64,000 nucleotides of DNA from Commensalibacter nepenthis (GTDB taxonomy: Bacteria; Pseudomonadota; Alphaproteobacteria; Acetobacterales; Acetobacteraceae). Within the stretch, counting starts at the first letter, position 1; each line of letters begins with the position of its first letter. The position numbers were made by a program, and so were the translations under genes. The stretch spans positions 2,163,001 through 2,227,000 of the forward strand of contig NZ_JASBAN010000001.1 in the NCBI RefSeq assembly GCF_029953305.1, given 5' to 3'. Below are positions 1 to 10,328 of the stretch, one piece after another. Under the pieces are notes generated by a model. That model searched no databases, was not told the origin of the DNA, and saw nothing but the letters and a program-made list of their open reading frames with translations.

Positions 1-1031
1 GTAGGAATATATAATACATTATTTTTAGATATAAATGGATGTGCAGGCCATTTCAATCTGGGGTCGGTGATTAATTTATTCAAAATACGACCGGTGGTAA
101 AACGATAGACACTGTTGGTTGCGATATCATCAATATATAAAGTGCCATCAGGTCCGCAAACGATACCACCTGATGAAGGGGTTTTAAACCAAATCATCAT
201 GGCTTCGTTTAATTCAGCAGGGGAGTAGGTCGCATCGTTGAGATACATGGTATCAATACGATATAAAGGACCACTGACGGCTTGGTAATATAAGCGTTTT
301 CCATCTGGAGAAATGGCCAATTGGTTCACATTGAAATGTGAGGATTGGTCAAGGTTTGGTTTAACGACTTGGTTATTCGCAACCACTGCAAGTCGAGAAT
401 AAAGGCTGGGAGAATTTTCCAACAAGCGTCTGGCTTGACCTGTCTTGGTATCAAACACGATGATGGCAGGTGCGCCTTCGTCTGCAATATAAATATGGTG
501 ATCGTAAACAGCAATTGCGTTCAAAGCGGTTTTTTCTTTGAATACAGAGTCAGGAATAGGATATGTTTGAAGAACTTGGTCTGTTTTTGTATCGATTGTT
601 ATAATTTTGGCAGCATTTTTAATCGGCGTAGCCCCAACTTTTGGAATACCACTATCTAAAACCCATAAAATTCCATCTGGCGTCAAAGTCATCCCTGTTA
701 ACCCAATGAAATGTTTACTTAAATTTTGTGTGTTGATGTTGTTCCATTCTTCGTTTGGGTATGGAGTTAAGGTGTTATCTGGCTTGACAATCGCAAGAGA
801 AAGTCCTTTATCATCAGTCAATCTTGGGAATTGAGCAATCATGCGTTCTTTATCATCAACCACGATATAGTCGGGTAAATATCCCTTAACAGAAGCGACT
901 TGCTTTAACGCATCTGATGATAAAAGTGCTGGTTGATCCAGCTTTTGTTTTGCATGTGCTAAAGAGGGAGCAATGAAGATCAGTGCCAAGGCAAAAGATA
1001 CAGAACGGGTAAAAGGTTTTAATAAAATCAT
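1..1031 (-). CDS. Yellow/major royal jelly protein family protein, exported, 3' end outside window
   Basis: The frame is open from the ATG at 1031 to the window edge, so about 343 codons are present and the C-terminus is missing. Residues 1-27 form a Sec signal peptide ending in AHA. The body carries the landmarks of the Yellow/MRJP propeller family (PF03022) in the usual order: PYPNEEWN at 90-97, ILWVLDSG at 121-128, YIADEG at 181-186 and LAISPDGKRLYYQ at 238-250. Insect members bind amines or act on dopachrome; the role of bacterial members is poorly known, so only the fold and a periplasmic or secreted location are claimed. An AGGA lies about 14 bases before the ATG, a poor spacing. The gene diverges from the TPR gene at 1236. 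Family call is firm; function is unknown. Confidence 0.85.
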   Translation of the reverse strand, partial: MILLKPFTRSVSFALALIFIAPSLAHAKQKLDQPALLSSDALKQVASVKGYLPDYIVVDDKERMIAQFPRLTDDKGLSLAIVKPDNTLTPYPNEEWNNINTQNLSKHFIGLTGMTLTPDGILWVLDSGIPKVGATPIKNAAKIITIDTKTDQVLQTYPIPDSVFKEKTALNAIAVYDHHIYIADEGAPAIIVFDTKTGQARRLLENSPSLYSRLAVVANNQVVKPNLDQSSHFNVNQLAISPDGKRLYYQAVSGPLYRIDTMYLNDATYSPAELNEAMMIWFKTPSSGGIVCGPDGTLYIDDIATNSVYRFTTGRILNKLITDPRLKWPAHPFISKNNVLYIP

Positions 1032-1235
1032 AACCGATATTCTATTCCTGATATAAAACATAGAGTTTATTTATAAGGCAATTTTTTAAAAGATGATAGG
1101 GAATATCTGAGATAAAAGCTGATATTTTAAACGAAGTCTATTTTTCAGAATTCAATATTTTGAGTTTATACAAAGCTTTTGTATAGTGTTTTCAATATTT
1201 CTAAGTAATTTAAAGATTGATTTAGGTTGTTTTGC

Positions 1236-3095
1236 ATGTTTTACGATCAAAAAATAAACCATGGATTATCGTTGCTATCCAAAGGACAACTCCAAGAAGC
1301 TGATAATATCTTTTGTGATGTATTAACAAAAGAACCTAATTTTTCTGAGGCATTTTATGGCAGAGCCTGCGTAGCGAGGGCAGCAGGAAATCATGCTTTG
1401 GCTATTGGTTTTGCAGGACAGGCAATCGAAATTAAACCACAATCTCATTATTATATTCCCTTGGGATTGTCATTGTATGAACAAGGACATAGCGCAGAAG
1501 GAGAGGCTGCTTTAAAAAGTTCACTCTTATTAAATCCTTATGATCCAAGGGCTTATCATGCATTGGCTTTGGTTTATGAGGCAATGGGAAATCAACAAGG
1601 GGCGGAACATGCGTTTCGAAAAGCAATAGAGTTACAACCTTCATCTTTGACCTATTGGAAAGAGCTGATTCGATTTTATTATCAAGCAGAAGCATTCGAG
1701 CAAGCTTTAAATATTGCCAAGGATGCAGTTAAAAATAATGTGGGTAAAATAGAGTTTATGCATGAGCTTGGCGTTCTTTTGTATAAGATGGGCATATTAG
1801 GCGAAGCAGAGCGTGTATTTCGTAAAATCATACGCTTAAATCTTAATATTATTTCTGCTTACGCAAATTTGGGCGCTATTTTATTTCAGCTTAATCGATT
1901 GCAAGAAGCCAAAAAGAATTTGGTGTTTGCCCTCGAACATGAGCCTGAAGTCATTGAAACACAGGTTAATTTGGGATTGGTACAAATGGGGCTGGGGGCT
2001 TTGTCAGAAGCCAAAGAGTTGCTACAATCCGCTTATCAAAAAGCACCTCTTGACGCGCGTATTGGTTTAAATCTTGGCACAATTCTTTTTGAATTAAGAA
2101 TGTTGGATGATGCCGAAACAATATATCGTCACTTATTGACTCCTTCAGAGTTTATTTCATTAACAGAACAAGAATATCATAAAATAGAATATAATTTATC
2201 AATGGTTTTATTGGCTAAAGGGAATGTGATTGAAGGGTATGAGCATATGGAAGCTCGCCATTCTTTATTAAATCATTTTGTGGATAGCGATCATATTCCA
2301 ATATGGGATGGTAAAGAACCCGCTGAAACACTATTGGTTCGTGCAGAACAAGGGCTAGGGGATACACTGCAATTTATTCGTTATTTACCAGCCCTTTTAC
2401 AACAATATTCTATTGTTATCGAAGTGCAAAAAGAATTGGTTCATTTATTAGAACTTATTGTAAGTTCTTGTCAATCGGATCATTCATGTGTTGTCGTTGA
2501 AAAAAACAGCGTCTTACCAGAGGGTATAACGCATCAAGTCATGCTAATGAGTTTACCTTACCTGCTGCAAGCACAAGAGATTCCTCAATATCAATTGCGT
2601 TTGGAAACGTGCCAGTCACAGCATATTTCTGATGGATTAAAAGTTGGACTTTGTTGGATGGGAAATCGTGATAATCATTTTGATTTATTGCGCTCAATCC
2701 CTTTATCTAATTTTAGCTCTTTACTTGATAGTCATAAGATAGCGTTCTATGCATTACAAATAGGGCTGAAAAAATCAGATATGCCGAAAGGATTTGTTGG
2801 TGCTTTACCTTGTGGGGATTTATTACGAACGGCTTTCTTTATTCAACAATTAGATTTGGTAATCACTGTTGATACAATGATTGCACATTTGGCTGGAATA
2901 TTGGGTAAGCCTGTATGGTTATTAAATCGCTATGGTGGGGATTGGCGTTGGTATCCAACTTATCAAAATGAAAATAATAATAGTTTGTGGTATCCAACAT
3001 TGCGTATTTTTCAACAAAAACAGCCATTACCTCCAGATCAAGCATGGAATAACTTGATGGAAGAGGTAAAGGCTGAGTTGGCTACAATATTATAA
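1236..3095 (+). CDS. TPR-repeat protein with C-terminal glycosyltransferase-like domain
   Basis: The first ~330 residues are tandem 34-residue tetratricopeptide repeats with the usual A/G/Y/P spacing (for example a repeat containing YAPA-like turns and LNPYDPRAYHALA). The last ~270 residues match the region that follows TPRs in many alphaproteobacterial proteins related to GT9/GT41 glycosyltransferases: EQGLGDTLQFIRYL, VGLCWMGN and VITVDTMIAHLAG. There is no signal peptide, so it should be cytoplasmic. I prefer the ATG at 1236 over an in-frame TTG at 1227. It could glycosylate a surface or motility protein, but no acceptor gene is adjacent. It stands alone, diverging from the Yellow-like gene and converging on glnD with a 13-base gap. 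Confidence 0.8.
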   Translation: MFYDQKINHGLSLLSKGQLQEADNIFCDVLTKEPNFSEAFYGRACVARAAGNHALAIGFAGQAIEIKPQSHYYIPLGLSLYEQGHSAEGEAALKSSLLLNPYDPRAYHALALVYEAMGNQQGAEHAFRKAIELQPSSLTYWKELIRFYYQAEAFEQALNIAKDAVKNNVGKIEFMHELGVLLYKMGILGEAERVFRKIIRLNLNIISAYANLGAILFQLNRLQEAKKNLVFALEHEPEVIETQVNLGLVQMGLGALSEAKELLQSAYQKAPLDARIGLNLGTILFELRMLDDAETIYRHLLTPSEFISLTEQEYHKIEYNLSMVLLAKGNVIEGYEHMEARHSLLNHFVDSDHIPIWDGKEPAETLLVRAEQGLGDTLQFIRYLPALLQQYSIVIEVQKELVHLLELIVSSCQSDHSCVVVEKNSVLPEGITHQVMLMSLPYLLQAQEIPQYQLRLETCQSQHISDGLKVGLCWMGNRDNHFDLLRSIPLSNFSSLLDSHKIAFYALQIGLKKSDMPKGFVGALPCGDLLRTAFFIQQLDLVITVDTMIAHLAGILGKPVWLLNRYGGDWRWYPTYQNENNNSLWYPTLRIFQQKQPLPPDQAWNNLMEEVKAELATIL

Positions 3096-3108: not shown

Positions 3109-6036
3109 TTAAGGTTCTTCTTTTGGTGGTGTGATTTCCATTTGAATAATAGAAGCTGCACTATTGGGTTGAATGCCCGTAATATTTTCTTCTACTTCTT
3201 CAAGAACTTTTAAGATTGCTTCGCGAATAACAGATAAGCGTTTTTTATCTTGTACTTTTAAACCAAAAACATCTTTGATATAGAAAACATCCACCGCCCT
3301 GATACCATAGGTAGTAATATGTGCAGAGCTGATTTGTAGCTTTTGTTCTCTAATCGTTTTGGTGACATCATACAGTAACCCAATGCGGTCACGTCCGTTT
3401 ACTTCTATGACGGTAAATCCATTTGAGGCTTGATTATCAATGACAACCCTTGGGGGGACATGAATAGCCCGCATACGACGACCATATAACATATGACGAT
3501 TACAATCTTGCAGCCGTTGTTCAATATCAATGGTGCCAGCCAAAGCAGATGTAATTAAATCAACTGTTCGTTGCAAACGAAGTGGATCATCAAACACATC
3601 TTGTGCAGCATCTTGTATCCAAAATGTATCAAGCACCATACCATTGGTTAATGTATGAATACGTGCATCAACAATTGAAGCACCAGCCACAGCCAATGCA
3701 CCAGAGATTTTTGAAAATAAACCAGGATGATCAGGTGCGTAAACAGTAACTTCTGTAACACCGCGATCAGGCAAAGGATAGGTGCGTATGGTTAAAGGAG
3801 CTTGCTTTTGTTGTGCTTCTATAATCATATGCGCGTGGCGTATATGCGTATTTTCATCAAATGATAACCAATAGCTGGCATATCCTAAATTCATAAAAAA
3901 TTCGACATCAGCATTGGGAAGGTTGATAATTGAAAATTGTTTGGTCAGATTATTTTTTACACGATATACACGGGTATCGCGTTCTTGTGTAGCAAGACTA
4001 CCTTCTAAAACTTCTGCAACACGATTATAAAGCTCGGTCAATAACGTGGCTTTCCAAGCATTCCACACTTTTTTATTCACTGCACGCATGTCAGAAATGG
4101 TTAATAAGAAGAGTAGCCTTAATCGTTCAGGGGATTGAATGGTGTCAACCAAATCCAAAATTGTCTTTGGATCATCAATATCTCTTTGAAAGGCGGTATG
4201 GCTTAATAACAAATGATGCAAAATTAACCAAGAAACCGTATCGGTTTCCTCGGCTGACATATTAAGGCGGGAACAAATGGATAAAGCCATTTCAGAACCC
4301 ACTTCGGAATGATCCCCACCTCTGCCTTTGCCCATATCATGTAACAAAGTTGCCATATATAAGGCTCTTTTGGATTGAATACCTTGCAATAATTTATGGG
4401 CAAATTGCAAATCATCTTGATAATAACCTGCTTCGAGCATTGCCAGCAATTTAGCAGCTTCGATACTATGTTGATCAACGGTAAAGATATGATAGGTATC
4501 AAATTGCATTTGCCCTACCATACGTCGCCATTCTGGCATTAATTGTCCCAATATTCCTGTTTCATTCAGGATATGAAGCCAGTTTGCATTATATTGATCC
4601 TCGGGTGGAGGATAAATAATAGTGTTTTTTTCTTCTTCGTTGTTATTTTTTTGTAGTAATTTATAACGTGCCTTAGGGGATAAAAATGTTGGTGTATCAC
4701 ATAACAGGTCAAGAAAAATGGCGGATGCTTCAGCATTGCCACGTAATTGAGCGGCTTTGCGTTCCCATCGAATTAACTGATGAACCGCCAATGGATGTAT
4801 GGCGCGCTTTTGTGTTTGTGCTAGTTTCAACAGGCGCATCATTTCGATCGGATCTTTTTCAAAAGAAATATGCGCTGTTGGCAGGATTTTTCCTTCTAAT
4901 AAAGAGCATCCGGTGTGGGGGATATATTTTCCACTTTCAAATTTGTTTAATCTTGCCTTTTGAGTATAAAGCGTCAGCGCTGATTCAATCACATAGGTCA
5001 AACGCATGACTTCTCTGGCGGTAAGGAAGTAATGACGCATAAATCGTTCAACACCTACTTGCTGTCCATGTTTGGTGTATCCGATACGCCCACCAACAAC
5101 AGGCTGCATATCAAATGTTAAACGGTCCTCGGCTCTGCCTGAGATATAGTGCAGTTGAAATCTGACCGTCCACAGAAAATTATGAGCGCGTTGCAAGCGA
5201 TGAATTTCTTGTTCTGTTAACAAGCCAAGTTCGTTAATTTTGGGTGTTAAAAAGTCAGAAAATTGATCAAAACCCAACGTAAAACGATATTCCCAATAAA
5301 TGGTTTGCAGGTCTCGTAAACCCCCTTTGCCTTCTTTGATATTGGGTTCGACTAAATAAGGGGTTTCACCAAATTTTTTATGGCGATTTTCTCGCTCTTT
5401 ACTTTTTTCAAGGATATATCGTGTTGCACCGATTCCTTCGCATAAATTGACAAAGCTGGGTATAAATTCATCAAATAGTTTTTGATGCCCGCCTAACAAT
5501 CTGACATCAAGCAACGCCGTTAAAATAGTGATATCTTCTTTTGCTGCGGTCAAACACTCTGGAATTGAACGAATTGCATGACCGATTTTTATCCCTAAAT
5601 CCCATAGGAAATATAAATGTTGTTCTATGGTATCCAAAAGCTCTTTTGAAGGGTTTTCAGGGGTGATAAATAATAAATCGAGGTCACTGAAAGGGGCTAA
5701 GCATTTTCTGCCATAGCCACCTGTTGCTACGAATGCAATTTTATTTTTTTCATCATCAGAGCTTAATAATTGATGGTAAATCAGGTCAAATAAAACAACC
5801 ATTAATCCATCTGTAAATGCGGTCAATTGCTTGCTGGCCTGTAATCCTGACAATCTATTTTTTTCAAAATCAGTACGAACCTGTGTTTGAATACGACCCA
5901 AGTGACGACGAAAGATTTGTAATAATTCATCTCTTGACAAATTTGGATTATTACGAAATGCAACGCGAATCTTCTCTCGAAACATTTCAGTTGTTTGAGT
6001 AGGGTCAGATGATATATCAGTGACAGGGTGCTTCAA
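3109..6036 (-). CDS. glnD: Bifunctional [protein-PII] uridylyltransferase/UMP-removing enzyme
   Basis: GlnD senses glutamine and adds or removes UMP on PII proteins, setting nitrogen assimilation. The 975 residues hold every expected domain: nucleotidyltransferase motif GGYGR at 106-110 followed by SDLDLL at 117-122, an HD hydrolase motif HDMGKGRGGDHSE near residue 565, and two C-terminal ACT domains starting near 765 (PDHPGLFSKI) and 872 (GRDRIGLLYDV). Length fits the alphaproteobacterial family. It is the last gene of a minus-strand run after mutS and murJ, a common alphaproteobacterial neighbourhood. A 71-base gap separates it from mutS. No damage was seen. Confidence 0.97.
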   Translation of the reverse strand: MKHPVTDISSDPTQTTEMFREKIRVAFRNNPNLSRDELLQIFRRHLGRIQTQVRTDFEKNRLSGLQASKQLTAFTDGLMVVLFDLIYHQLLSSDDEKNKIAFVATGGYGRKCLAPFSDLDLLFITPENPSKELLDTIEQHLYFLWDLGIKIGHAIRSIPECLTAAKEDITILTALLDVRLLGGHQKLFDEFIPSFVNLCEGIGATRYILEKSKERENRHKKFGETPYLVEPNIKEGKGGLRDLQTIYWEYRFTLGFDQFSDFLTPKINELGLLTEQEIHRLQRAHNFLWTVRFQLHYISGRAEDRLTFDMQPVVGGRIGYTKHGQQVGVERFMRHYFLTAREVMRLTYVIESALTLYTQKARLNKFESGKYIPHTGCSLLEGKILPTAHISFEKDPIEMMRLLKLAQTQKRAIHPLAVHQLIRWERKAAQLRGNAEASAIFLDLLCDTPTFLSPKARYKLLQKNNNEEEKNTIIYPPPEDQYNANWLHILNETGILGQLMPEWRRMVGQMQFDTYHIFTVDQHSIEAAKLLAMLEAGYYQDDLQFAHKLLQGIQSKRALYMATLLHDMGKGRGGDHSEVGSEMALSICSRLNMSAEETDTVSWLILHHLLLSHTAFQRDIDDPKTILDLVDTIQSPERLRLLFLLTISDMRAVNKKVWNAWKATLLTELYNRVAEVLEGSLATQERDTRVYRVKNNLTKQFSIINLPNADVEFFMNLGYASYWLSFDENTHIRHAHMIIEAQQKQAPLTIRTYPLPDRGVTEVTVYAPDHPGLFSKISGALAVAGASIVDARIHTLTNGMVLDTFWIQDAAQDVFDDPLRLQRTVDLITSALAGTIDIEQRLQDCNRHMLYGRRMRAIHVPPRVVIDNQASNGFTVIEVNGRDRIGLLYDVTKTIREQKLQISSAHITTYGIRAVDVFYIKDVFGLKVQDKKRLSVIREAILKVLEEVEENITGIQPNSAASIIQMEITPPKEEP

Positions 6037-6107
6037 TTTTTTAAACCTGTTAGCAAAATTAATAAAATATTAATAAATAGACATAAATAATATTTAAGCA
6101 GATATAT

Positions 6108-8729
6108 TTATTTATCAATAAGCTTTTTCAGCTCATAGAGAATATTTAACGATTTTTTTGGTGTCAGTTCATCTGGATCGATTGTTTTTAGAAGTTTTTC
6201 GATTTCTTTATATTCTTTTGGCAATGAATTTACGTTTTTTTTCTCCTCTGTGGCTGGAGGAGGTAAGGGAAGTGTAATTTGAGGATTATGATATTGTTTT
6301 TCTAAATTTTCTAAAAGATATTGTGCACGTTGTAATGTTGGAAGGGGAACGCCTGCTAATTGTGCGACATGAATTCCCCAACTATGCTCTGCGGCACCAG
6401 GGATGACTTCATATTGAAAGATAATGCTGTTGTCCCATTCTTGTACTTTCATTGTAAAAGGTTTGCATGATTGAAGATGTCGAGTGGATTCTACCAACTC
6501 GTGAAAATGGGTTGCAAAGATAGTGCGGCACTGAATGGTATTATGTAATGTTTCCAACATTGCCCAGGCAATAGCCATTCCATCCAAGGTTGAGGTGCCG
6601 CGACCAATTTCATCAATGACAACCAAAGATTTGGGGCCTGCTTGGTTTAGAATAGAAGCCGCCTCGGTCATTTCAACCATAAATGTCGATCGACCATGCG
6701 CCAAATCATCAGATGCCCCAACACGTGAAAATAAATGATCGACAATACCAATTTTTGCTTCACTTGCCGCAACTGGCAACCCAGCCTGTGCAAGAATAAC
6801 GCTTAACGCCACTTGTCGCAAAAAGGTTGATTTGCCAGCCATATTTGGACCTGTTAACAGCATAATCTTTTTATTTTGTGATAAATCACAAGAATTGGGT
6901 GTAAAAGTTGCCTTATGTTGCATGGCAGCTTCTACAATAGGATGTCGACAATGGGTTAATTTAAAAGTTGTATCGTCACTGAGTGTAGGAATACACCAAT
7001 TATGTTTGGAATATAAAACTGCACAAGATTGTAAGACATCAATCATGGTAATCGATTTCGCCAATATAGGCAGTGTATTTTCTTGTAAAGCTTTATCAAT
7101 TAATTCACAAAAAAGCTGTTTTTCTTTTTCAGCCGCAAGAATATTGGCTTCTAAGATTTTTTCACTGAGTTCATTCAGTTCAATCGTAGTAAAACGTGAA
7201 AGATTTGCAGTTCCTTGGCGTAGAATAAGATCAGGGTAATCGCGAAGTTTGGTGCCAGATGTTGCGCTGACTTCAATAATATGACCTAGCTGTGTGTGAT
7301 GTTTGATCTTTAATGTGCTGATATTGAATTTACTTTTGTAATCTTCTTGCAAATTAACAATCACTTGGCGGCTATTATCTCTTAGGCGACGATAGGTATC
7401 TAGCTCGTCATTATATCCAGTTTTGATAATAAAGCCTTCTTCAAGTTTTAAAGGAGGATTTTCCTCTAAAGCCGCACGAAGGTCTTGTAACAACTCTTCG
7501 CCGTATAAAAAATACTCGGATATATTTTGAATAAGCGAACAAACACGCCCTGTCTCTTCTTTATAGGAATTTAGAATGCTGGCGATCTTACGTCCAATTT
7601 CTAATCCATTGCGAATAGAGGCTAAATCTCTGGGTTGACCTCTGCCTAATGATAATCGACTAAGCGCCCGCGCAATATCAGGCGCTCCTTTTAATATTTT
7701 ACGTAATTCAGCAAGTAGAGCAGCGTTTTGATGTAAATAAATCCATCCTTCTTGCCTTTTTTGAATAAGTTCGATCTGTGTCAAGGGAGCAGAAAGCCAG
7801 TTCGCCAACATGCGCGCGCCAGCAGCCGTTACCGTATGAGAAACGCTGGAAAATAACGTAAATTTCTGATTACCATTACTATTTTGTAAAATGTCCAAGC
7901 TGTTACGTGTTGCAGGGTCAATGGCTAAGATTGATTCATATCGTTGGGATTGAGGGCGTGCAAGTTGAGGAATTTTTCCTGCTTGGGTTTTTTGGATATA
8001 ATGTATCAGCTCATATCCTGCGATGATTTCTTCGTCATTAAAATGACCCAAAGCTTCAAAAGAATTCACATTAAAAAGTTCAGCAAGCTCTTTTGCTGCT
8101 GTATTTAATGTATGATGTTCACGAAGGACAGTGCGAAGCGTTTCATAGTCGTTTAATGGAATCTCTTTTGAACACAAGATTTCCGAAGGATTAATGCGCC
8201 CCAATAAATCATTTAATTTAGAGCCATCAACAAAACTTGTTTCAAAAACACCCGTTGAAATATCAATCCATGCTACGCCAAATTTTGGTGTCTTACTTTT
8301 TTGTTGAGGAATAATCGATGCAACGTAATTGGCTTGTTCAGCGTGTAGCAATTCATCTTCTGTCAAAGTTCCTGGTGTAATCAGACGAACAATAGCGCGA
8401 GATAATGGACCTTTTTGTCCTTTTGGTCGATCCGAAGGCGTTTCAGTTTGTTCTGCAATGGCAACTTTAAAGCCTTTTTTAATTAAACGGGATAAATAAT
8501 TGGATGCTGTTCCAATGGGAACGCCACACATGGGAATGGGGCTGCCCCCGTGATTTCCTCTTGCTGTCAAAGCGATATCTAATGCATAGGCAGCGACTTC
8601 GGCATCTTTAAAAAACAATTCGAAAAAATCACCCATGCGGAAAAATAATAACGCATCTGGGTATTGTTCTTTTAAAGAAAACCATTGTGCCATTACTGGG
8701 GTGGCACCTTCGGGTGATGGGATTGTCAT
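6108..8729 (-). CDS. mutS: DNA mismatch repair ATPase MutS
   Basis: MutS recognises mispairs and recruits MutL. The mismatch-binding F-x-E motif is present in the N-terminal GDFFEL (around residue 37). The Walker A GPNMAGKST is near residue 628, and the Walker B VVIDEIGRGTS near 705, followed by the FATHFHEL histidine switch region. About 873 residues is normal for MutS1. I chose the ATG at 8729, which has GAG a few bases upstream, over the GTG two codons earlier, which has no ribosome binding site. It lies between murJ (39-45 bases upstream) and glnD. The C-terminal linker is rich in Lys and Pro, as usual. Confidence 0.97.
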   Translation of the reverse strand: MTIPSPEGATPVMAQWFSLKEQYPDALLFFRMGDFFELFFKDAEVAAYALDIALTARGNHGGSPIPMCGVPIGTASNYLSRLIKKGFKVAIAEQTETPSDRPKGQKGPLSRAIVRLITPGTLTEDELLHAEQANYVASIIPQQKSKTPKFGVAWIDISTGVFETSFVDGSKLNDLLGRINPSEILCSKEIPLNDYETLRTVLREHHTLNTAAKELAELFNVNSFEALGHFNDEEIIAGYELIHYIQKTQAGKIPQLARPQSQRYESILAIDPATRNSLDILQNSNGNQKFTLFSSVSHTVTAAGARMLANWLSAPLTQIELIQKRQEGWIYLHQNAALLAELRKILKGAPDIARALSRLSLGRGQPRDLASIRNGLEIGRKIASILNSYKEETGRVCSLIQNISEYFLYGEELLQDLRAALEENPPLKLEEGFIIKTGYNDELDTYRRLRDNSRQVIVNLQEDYKSKFNISTLKIKHHTQLGHIIEVSATSGTKLRDYPDLILRQGTANLSRFTTIELNELSEKILEANILAAEKEKQLFCELIDKALQENTLPILAKSITMIDVLQSCAVLYSKHNWCIPTLSDDTTFKLTHCRHPIVEAAMQHKATFTPNSCDLSQNKKIMLLTGPNMAGKSTFLRQVALSVILAQAGLPVAASEAKIGIVDHLFSRVGASDDLAHGRSTFMVEMTEAASILNQAGPKSLVVIDEIGRGTSTLDGMAIAWAMLETLHNTIQCRTIFATHFHELVESTRHLQSCKPFTMKVQEWDNSIIFQYEVIPGAAEHSWGIHVAQLAGVPLPTLQRAQYLLENLEKQYHNPQITLPLPPPATEEKKNVNSLPKEYKEIEKLLKTIDPDELTPKKSLNILYELKKLIDK

Positions 8730-8774
8730 TCTCACTCGTTTAGTTTAGTCATAAATCATTAACATATTAAAATA

Positions 8775-10328
8775 TTATTTTCTTAATATTCTCTTTTTAA
8801 GCCTAGTTGAAAATTGCCGTAAGTCAATGATTTTGAGAAGATGTAAAGCAATACCGTAAAGTAATCCCCCTATAGAAATTAATAATATTATAGAAAATAG
8901 GCGATATATAATATTTTGTTGTGGAAGATTAGCAAAAAATAGATGTGTTATGCTTATCAAAACAAGGCACATCACCAAGGACGCTCCTGTCATTGCTACG
9001 ATTCGTTTTATTAAAGGAAGGGGTAAAGCTAATGCGTCTCTTTTATATAAGATCACAGCCAATATAATAACGTTGATTGTCGCAGCCAAGCTATTTGCAA
9101 GGGGTGGACCCATATAAGTAAGAGGCCTCATGAAAATCAGATTTAGAATAAGATTTAGAAAAATAGTGAATATACCGATTTTCACTGGGGTTGAGGTGTC
9201 GCCTCTGGCAAAAAAGCCTGGGGACAAGACTTTGATTAATACAAAGGCTGGCAATCCGAGCGTATACATCTGCAAAGCCAGAGCAGAAGCATACACATCT
9301 TTGACGGTAAAAGCACCATGACCAAATAAAGTCGAAATCACAGGAACAGCGATACTAAACAATCCAAACGCAGCAGGTAACGTTAATAGAAGGCTGTAAT
9401 CAATGGCTTTATTTTGTGCATCAAATGCTGCATTTGGCTCTTTGTTTTGTAGTGCTTTTGTTAAAATAGGTAATAATGTCGTTCCTGCTGCTGCACCCAG
9501 AACACCAAGAGGAAGTTGGTTGATACGATCTGCAAAATACATGACCGAAACGCTGCCTGTTGGTAATAAGGTCGCAATAATGGTGCTGATGGTTAAATTA
9601 ATTTGCGTAATACCGCTACCAACAATACCAGGAGCCATTTTCCTAAATAACAGCCGGATATCTTGGGTTAGCTTTGGAAAACATAATGTTATTCGCATTC
9701 CAGCTTTTCTGGCTGCAACCAGTAAAATACCCAGCTGCACAAAACCAGACAAGGTAACCCCCCACGCCGCAGCCCATGCTGCGTTTGGCATATAGGGGGT
9801 TAGCCATAATAAGGCAGCAATCCCAACAATGTTAAAGCTGACATAAGCTGCCGCAGCGATACCAAAATGGTGTAGGCTATTTAAAACTCCAGCTACTAAG
9901 GCTGCGGCGCAAATAAGGATCATATAGGGAAATGTAATACGGCTAAGCGCCACCGCTTCATCATAACGTACTTTATCAACGGTAAAGCCAGGGGCAATGA
10001 TCCTTACAATTTGTGGCATAAATATTTCTGCTAAAATTGTAATGATGAATAATATTGTGATTAAGACGCTAAAGGATTCATTAGCAAAACGCTGTGCTTC
10101 TTTTTGGTTTTTGTTGGTCAAAGTCATGGTGAATAAAGGCACAAATGCTGCGTTAAAAGCACCTTCACCAAAAAGATTGCGGAACATATTGGGCAGGCGA
10201 AAAGCAACTTGATATGCATCTTGCAGAGAACCAGCCCCTAAAAAAGCAGCAAGTAATTGGTCTCTGACCAAACCAAGTAGGCGACTTATCATTGTCCAAC
10301 TGCCTACGGTTAATATATTTTTTAACAT
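8775..10328 (-). CDS. murJ: Lipid II flippase MurJ
   Basis: This is a polytopic inner-membrane protein of the MOP superfamily with about 14 predicted membrane segments. It flips lipid II to the periplasm for peptidoglycan synthesis. The N-terminus MLKNILTVGSWTMISRLLGL and the following VRDQLLAAFLGAG and LPNMFRNLFGEGAFNAAF are hallmark MurJ sequences. The ATG at 10328 has AGGG about 6 bases upstream and gives the canonical start; an in-frame ATG at 10352 would add eight residues and has no ribosome binding site. It sits between gpx and mutS, which is a usual alphaproteobacterial arrangement for murJ and mutS. Confidence 0.96.
   Translation of the reverse strand: MLKNILTVGSWTMISRLLGLVRDQLLAAFLGAGSLQDAYQVAFRLPNMFRNLFGEGAFNAAFVPLFTMTLTNKNQKEAQRFANESFSVLITILFIITILAEIFMPQIVRIIAPGFTVDKVRYDEAVALSRITFPYMILICAAALVAGVLNSLHHFGIAAAAYVSFNIVGIAALLWLTPYMPNAAWAAAWGVTLSGFVQLGILLVAARKAGMRITLCFPKLTQDIRLLFRKMAPGIVGSGITQINLTISTIIATLLPTGSVSVMYFADRINQLPLGVLGAAAGTTLLPILTKALQNKEPNAAFDAQNKAIDYSLLLTLPAAFGLFSIAVPVISTLFGHGAFTVKDVYASALALQMYTLGLPAFVLIKVLSPGFFARGDTSTPVKIGIFTIFLNLILNLIFMRPLTYMGPPLANSLAATINVIILAVILYKRDALALPLPLIKRIVAMTGASLVMCLVLISITHLFFANLPQQNIIYRLFSIILLISIGGLLYGIALHLLKIIDLRQFSTRLKKRILRK

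Follow-up and report, generated by a model that had tools for sequence, protein, structure and literature searches.

A Yellow/major royal jelly protein (MRJP) gene that stands beside the threonine synthase gene (thrC) in Commensalibacter nepenthis and in many other acetic acid bacteria appears, from the aligned residues, to have lost the aspartates that several other bacterial Yellow clades keep at the mouth of the propeller pore. This apparent loss is the new point of our analysis; bacterial Yellows themselves, and a proposed bacterial origin of the insect Yellows, were already known, as set out in the accessible text of PMC6678240. A literature search that covered few subscription journals turned up no account of a thrC-linked Yellow or of a ring at the pore. 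From the computed family, predicted fold, synteny, single thrC-linked clade, aspartate loss and low dN/dS we infer a protein that is probably exported, is probably co-transcribed with thrC, may lack catalysis and may serve the cell envelope.

A Yellow/MRJP propeller encoded at the edge of the window

In the window, by which we mean the whole stretch of 64,000 nucleotides that was analysed, a minus-strand frame of C. nepenthis opens at an ATG at position 1061 and is still open at base 1, where the window begins. The genome sequence supplies the 3′ end, with 106 further bases to the stop codon; the complete gene has 388 codons (genome locus L002:1309-2475), of which the window holds the first 353, and the gene is hence incomplete there. 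A second in-frame ATG at 1031 (residue 11) is aligned in all nine genus orthologues and is the likelier start. The features at this end of the window are as follows.

1..1061, minus strand: Yellow/MRJP (PF03022) gene, first 353 of 388 codons (frame, profile match and orthologues)
951..1031, minus strand: probable Sec signal peptide, residues 11-37, with an A-H-A site (by eye from the sequence)
1227..3095, plus strand: tetratricopeptide-repeat protein, a divergently transcribed neighbour separate from the Yellow gene (frame)

The first-pass annotation had proposed a Yellow/MRJP homologue with a signal peptide and four propeller landmarks, in a gut-type acetic acid bacterium; our results bear out the family, the landmarks and the type of organism, and make export probable. 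A profile search with the full-length gene matched the protein to PF03022 (MRJP/Yellow) at 83.8 bits against a cut-off of 19.8 (E = 1.8e-23). Read by eye, the N-terminus resembles a Sec signal peptide in its basic stretch, hydrophobic core and A-H-A site. All four landmarks were present in order: PYPNEEWN at residues 100-107, ILWVLDSG at 131-138, YIADEG at 191-196 and LAISPDGKRLYYQ at 248-260. The organism is indeed a Commensalibacter, and in a scan of named genomes the closest matches to the Yellow gene all belonged to that genus, with identities of 87% in C. communis, 86% in C. intestini, 77% in C. papalotli, 57% in C. melissae and 55% and 48% in two uncultured members; matches from other genera were 33% identical or less. 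Four family proteins were also searched against NCBIfam, and none had a model above its cut-off.

Because the window's own copy is cut by the window edge, the fold model was built from the C. communis orthologue (mean pLDDT 87.9, 37 sequences). Foldseek ranked 2qe8, 9w1k, MRJP1 and LJM11 at the top for this model. VIA-align gave Z scores of 38.1 for 2qe8, 37.0 and 36.7 for MRJP1, 36.5 for the Aedes dopachrome conversion enzyme and 32.7 for LJM11, followed by a hetero-Diels-Alderase and an SMP-30-type protein at 26.7, the other propellers listed scoring 26.7 or less. The predicted structure is thus a six-bladed propeller nearest to the solved Yellow/MRJP members (Z 32.7-38.1 versus at most 26.7). 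By sequence, the solved relatives were 2qe8 (2.1e-16, the best), MRJP1 (5.6e-7) and the Aedes enzyme (0.06). The protein in 2QE8 (Ava_4197 of Anabaena variabilis, a putative hydrolase), best by both measures and 26% identical, shares with the window protein the Asn at blade 4 and the Trp at blade 6, but retains Asn-Asp at blade 3, Asp at blade 5 and W-x-D at blade 6. MRJP1 and the Aedes enzyme are alike in family and fold (Z 37.0 and 36.5) but are 16-19% identical over the structural alignment and carry other residues at blades 2 and 4. SMP-30/gluconolactonase propellers also have six blades (2p4o, Z 26.7), but PF08450 (gluconolactonase) was absent from the seven families listed for the Yellow protein at E values up to 1, and a gluconolactonase/SGL identity was rejected on this ground and on that of the fold, which is nearer to Yellow/MRJP. 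A separate PF08450 member was found elsewhere in the same genome by profile search (7.8e-66).

Conserved position upstream of thrC

We examined 27 neighbourhoods, seven from Commensalibacter and 20 around the top-scoring matches of six other genera, and in every one of them the Yellow gene was followed by thrC on the same strand. The gap between the two genes measured 24-161 bases in 26 neighbourhoods (32 in the window's genome) and 1,154 in one. At this last locus (L156) about 1.1 kb lies between Yellow (5920-7113) and thrC (8268-9665), possibly an insertion or a partial thrC copy. In the window's genome Yellow is followed by thrC, an M16 peptidase, a PmbA/TldD protein and a Tim44-like protein (L003:4742-9862), and the downstream frame clusters recur, with the M16 peptidase and PmbA/TldD in 26 of the 27 neighbourhoods and the Tim44-like protein in 25. 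Members of three of these four families act elsewhere in the processing or import of proteins, which might or might not bear on the Yellow protein.

Among loci retrieved with small flanks, thrC adjoined Yellow in 30/30 of the best matches and in 3/20 of the weaker ones. To avoid selection by match score, we also approached the locus from thrC, in 30 Acetobacteraceae genomes (27 genera) that had given no strong match of the window's type. In 18 of these genomes (two of them, G021 and G142, already among the small-flank loci) the 1.5 kb upstream of thrC contained a Yellow frame on the same strand, and in the other 12 it did not; at two thrC loci without Yellow (L189 and L205) the contig ends downstream of thrC, the upstream side being present. 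The 12 thrC regions without Yellow indicate that the gene is dispensable in Acetobacteraceae. Altogether, a thrC-linked Yellow was present in 22 of the 34 genera looked at, genomes and genera having been chosen non-randomly. A scan over 1.6 kb returned six promoter-like sites versus 5.9 in shuffles, one of the six being a weak site (9 of 12) that ends at the thrC start, and three terminator-like sites versus 0.9 in shuffles, none of them in the 32-base gap between Yellow and thrC. Yellow is probably the first gene of a unit, yellow-thrC-M16 peptidase-PmbA/TldD, whose members would be transcribed together.

A single thrC-linked clade

The main tree started from 192 family domains, 166 of them distinct, which were thinned to 73 below approximately 72% identity; with four solved chains included and two short rows (L177 and L129) excluded it had 75 rows. 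The window gene was placed inside a 16-row Acetobacteraceae clade with support of 100/99, and the three insect chains, which are partial and sit on long branches, formed a separate long branch. A further tree of 84 rows was computed by a quick method, with the insect rows and L177, L129, L119, L130, L132, L123 and L134 omitted to avoid long branches. It contained 33 thrC-linked rows, of which 16 were already a clade in the 75-row tree and 17 were added by position, one of these (L194, g71) being long and unsure in its placement. Gene position played no part in building the tree, and all 33 thrC-linked rows were found on one side of a branch (SH-aLRT 98); the linkage label changed once on the tree, versus a mean of 26 changes in 500 shuffles. 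One arrival beside thrC, followed by inheritance, is the simplest account. Since the position is common to many acetic acid bacteria and the copies form one clade, descent explains the presence in the window of this gene, which is the thrC-linked Yellow of acetic acid bacteria.

Aspartates at the pore mouth

For each of the six blades we followed the entry position of its innermost strand, and at blades 3 and 6 the neighbouring positions too. These positions lie at or beside strand starts in the C. communis model (numbering shifted by 10) and should face the pore, as judged from propeller topology rather than from coordinates. In the window they are the following.

870..872, minus strand: blade 1 entry, Asp-64; Thr, Asn or Ser in other clades (alignment)
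696..698, minus strand: blade 2 entry, Thr-122; LJM11 has Tyr-90 here, and most of the other bacterial clades have Gln or Asn
516..521, minus strand: blade 3 entry, Asn-181 and Ala-182; Asn-Asp or Asp-Asp in other bacterial clades
324..326, minus strand: blade 4 entry, Asn-246, with Asn in 2qe8 as well; LJM11 has Phe-223 here, and most of the other bacterial clades have Asp
168..170, minus strand: blade 5 entry, Gly-298; Asp or Gly in other bacterial clades
42..50, minus strand: blade 6 entry, Trp-338, Pro-339 and Ala-340; Phe-325 and Thr-327 in LJM11 (alignment)

Read from blade 1 to blade 6, the window protein has D, T, N-A, N, G and W..A. A 15-row bacterial clade (nine alphaproteobacterial rows, five from other Pseudomonadota and one verrucomicrobial) has T, Q, N-D, D, D and W..D in 15/15 rows, and the same pattern was observed in 5/5 rows of a smaller clade with an Acetobacteraceae member. 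The entry of blade 6 reads W-P-D or W-x-D in most other bacterial clades. The clade of the second Yellow paralogue of C. nepenthis has S, H (6/8 rows), N-D, D, D and D. Two Acetobacteraceae-rich clades of nine rows each have N, N, D-D, D, G and W..D, the first in all nine rows save for one Asn at blade 3 and the second in 8/9 rows at most positions. Asn at blade 4, as in the window, was found in 4/5 rows of an Anabaena-like clade and in the two Methylobacterium second copies that were checked, which have Gly at blade 5. The three insect chains, the Aedes dopachrome conversion enzyme among them, are also without the Asp ring. Not every clade outside the thrC-linked one therefore carries the ring.

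The difference was examined at three positions, b3D, b4 and b6, of blades 3, 4 and 6. Asp occupied them in 0/14 rows of the main thrC-linked clade versus 15/15, 9/9, 8/9 and 8/8 rows of four other clades. Their variability in the 14 rows corresponded to percentiles 0.42-0.53, about that of the median column, while they were invariant in three of the other clades and 8/9 in the fourth. Two early rows of the 16-row clade (g56 and g86) keep Asp at all three. Among 61 non-redundant thrC-linked sequences, the most divergent of which align poorly and uncertainly, 58, the window's included, were without Asp at at least one of the three positions; the three sequences with Asp at all of them are all g56 or g86, and g9 keeps Asp at b3D alone. 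An acidic ring kept at the pore mouth by several other bacterial clades thus seems to have been lost in the thrC-linked slot, and with it the reaction or ligand of the ring is probably served no longer.

The gene itself is under purifying selection and shows no decay. Compared with five genus relatives, dN/dS was 0.073, 0.084, 0.090, 0.135 and 0.160 for Yellow and, in the four of five pairs that could be computed, 0.031, 0.033, 0.052 and 0.074 for thrC, all of these figures being rough because dS was near or above 1.

Proposed function of the thrC-linked Yellow

The gene encodes a predicted six-bladed Yellow/MRJP propeller, probably exported, which selection has retained most likely as a non-catalytic binder or scaffold of the periplasm or envelope. 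That the propeller has given up its ancestral pocket chemistry and is kept for non-catalytic binding or a role in the envelope we regard as an even chance. A fuller version, to which we give slightly less than even weight, is that the thrC-linked Yellows are a pseudoenzyme lineage. In this version one copy settled ahead of thrC in an ancestor, the ring was lost once the lineages g56 and g86 had branched off, and the propeller was retained for non-catalytic use in the envelope, also where the genome measures no more than 1.9-2.2 Mb. The sole experimental hint of an envelope role comes by analogy from Deinococcus radiodurans, where, according to the accessible text of PMC4507557, deletion of dr1790 makes membranes leaky (20% of mutant cells take up propidium iodide versus 1%) and DR1790 is located at the membrane; DR1790 is a bacterial Yellow with a knockout study and is likened to the window protein by family name, not by sequence. 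The main rival is an active enzyme with a changed pocket, whose chemistry would have been exchanged for that of, for example, another lactone, a quinone or an aminochrome. Within the 16-row clade the blade 5 Gly (16/16), the blade 6 Trp (15/16) and Gln-356 (15/16) are fixed, so that the pore retains some constraint, as that of a changed enzyme would; the low dN/dS agrees with this too, and the insect dopachrome conversion enzyme has no Asp ring at blades 3 and 4 either. The other former Asp columns, however, vary like the median column, although the residues of a newly formed active site should be fixed, and we consider a changed enzyme rather unlikely.

The first-pass annotation had further raised amine binding, dopachrome chemistry and ancient transfer involving an insect host. 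A biogenic-amine binder or dopachrome converter of the insect kind, with the host or melanin formation as its field of action, has in its favour the fold, which matches both LJM11 (3Q6K, a sand-fly salivary amine binder; Z 32.7) and the Aedes enzyme. The serotonin contacts of LJM11 were taken from the accessible text of PMC5094789 and PMC6678240, and the residues of the LJM11 chain match the published numbering. Four contacts fall on the columns that we followed, one each at blades 2 and 4 (Tyr-90 and Phe-223) and two at blade 6 (Phe-325 and Thr-327), and in this order the window protein has Thr, Asn, Trp and Ala there. The Trp preserves an aromatic residue at Phe-325, and Phe-357 would stand at Phe-344 by gap-free extrapolation; Gln-91, Phe-178 and Asp-328 are replaced by Gly, Glu and His, so that most of the contacts described in these sources are absent. 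Moreover, thrC-linked copies occur in 22/34 genera, many with genomes of 3-5 Mb. Judged by its residues, amine or dopachrome chemistry is therefore unlikely; the replacement of Tyr-90, Phe-223 and Thr-327 by Thr, Asn and Ala weakens the original suggestion, and we hold this alternative to be improbable. A melanin route via tyrosinase was considered as well; no tyrosinase match was found in the genome, weak evidence since the search controls also matched nowhere. Our literature search found no catalytic residues for the dopachrome conversion enzyme. In Gluconacetobacter brunescens an L-dopachrome tautomerase-related protein appears in an in silico pigment pathway, the authors favouring pyomelanin in the accessible text (PMC12654741). 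Exchange of the gene between Commensalibacter and an insect host is far less probable still. On the proposed tree of bacterial and insect members the insects did stand apart from the window's clade (100/99), but a joint clade was not rejected by AU tests, either for the window's clade with the insects (p = 0.083) or for Commensalibacter with the insects (p = 0.089, log-likelihood 19.7 lower). Against an exchange stand this separation, the thrC-adjacent position common to 21 other genera and a best solved relative that is cyanobacterial (2.1e-16 versus 5.6e-7 for MRJP1). The transfer reading thus found no support, the thrC-linked position and the single clade of acetic acid bacteria fitting inheritance. 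For the family, transfer from bacteria to insects was proposed by Ferguson et al. (cited in PMC6678240), and the accessible text of PMC6678240 notes that earlier trees failed to find a clear bacterial-insect link. An old bacterial thrC-linked gene whose pocket lacks acidic residues present in several groups of related bacterial proteins makes a special link to an insect host unlikely.

The analysis parts an attractive story of host interaction from an old bacterial gene. The T-Q-ND-D-D-D ring, without exception in the 15 rows of one clade, is a candidate active site of bacterial Yellows and shares columns with the serotonin contacts of LJM11; the ring-less lineage of acetic acid bacteria offers a natural negative control. 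If the pseudoenzyme reading is true, bacteria would provide a series from four Asp through three to none, and the ancestral Yellow reaction could be found by comparison.

Second copies and distribution of the family

The window's genome (2.52 Mb, 22 contigs) contains two PF03022 genes, which are 22% identical to each other. The window's type was found in 9/9 genomes of the genus and the second type additionally in 4/9. The second gene of C. nepenthis (L004:8694-9902, plus strand) retains the Asp ring; transposase-like partial frames, recognized by eye, lie upstream of it and an aldehyde dehydrogenase downstream. PF03022 was detected in 117/397 Acetobacteraceae genomes and 36/102 genera, with one to five matches each, and in 21/398 genomes of a phylum-wide draw, four of them Acetobacteraceae. 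On this distribution the family is no marker of insect hosts; the first-pass annotation had considered the case that the organism lives in bees or flies. In Methylobacterium, two Yellow genes from different clades lie close by on one strand at L081 (5899-7179 and 8253-9443), L078, L084, L088, L089, L092 and L094, and also at L096, L099, L101, L104, L106, L111 and L112.
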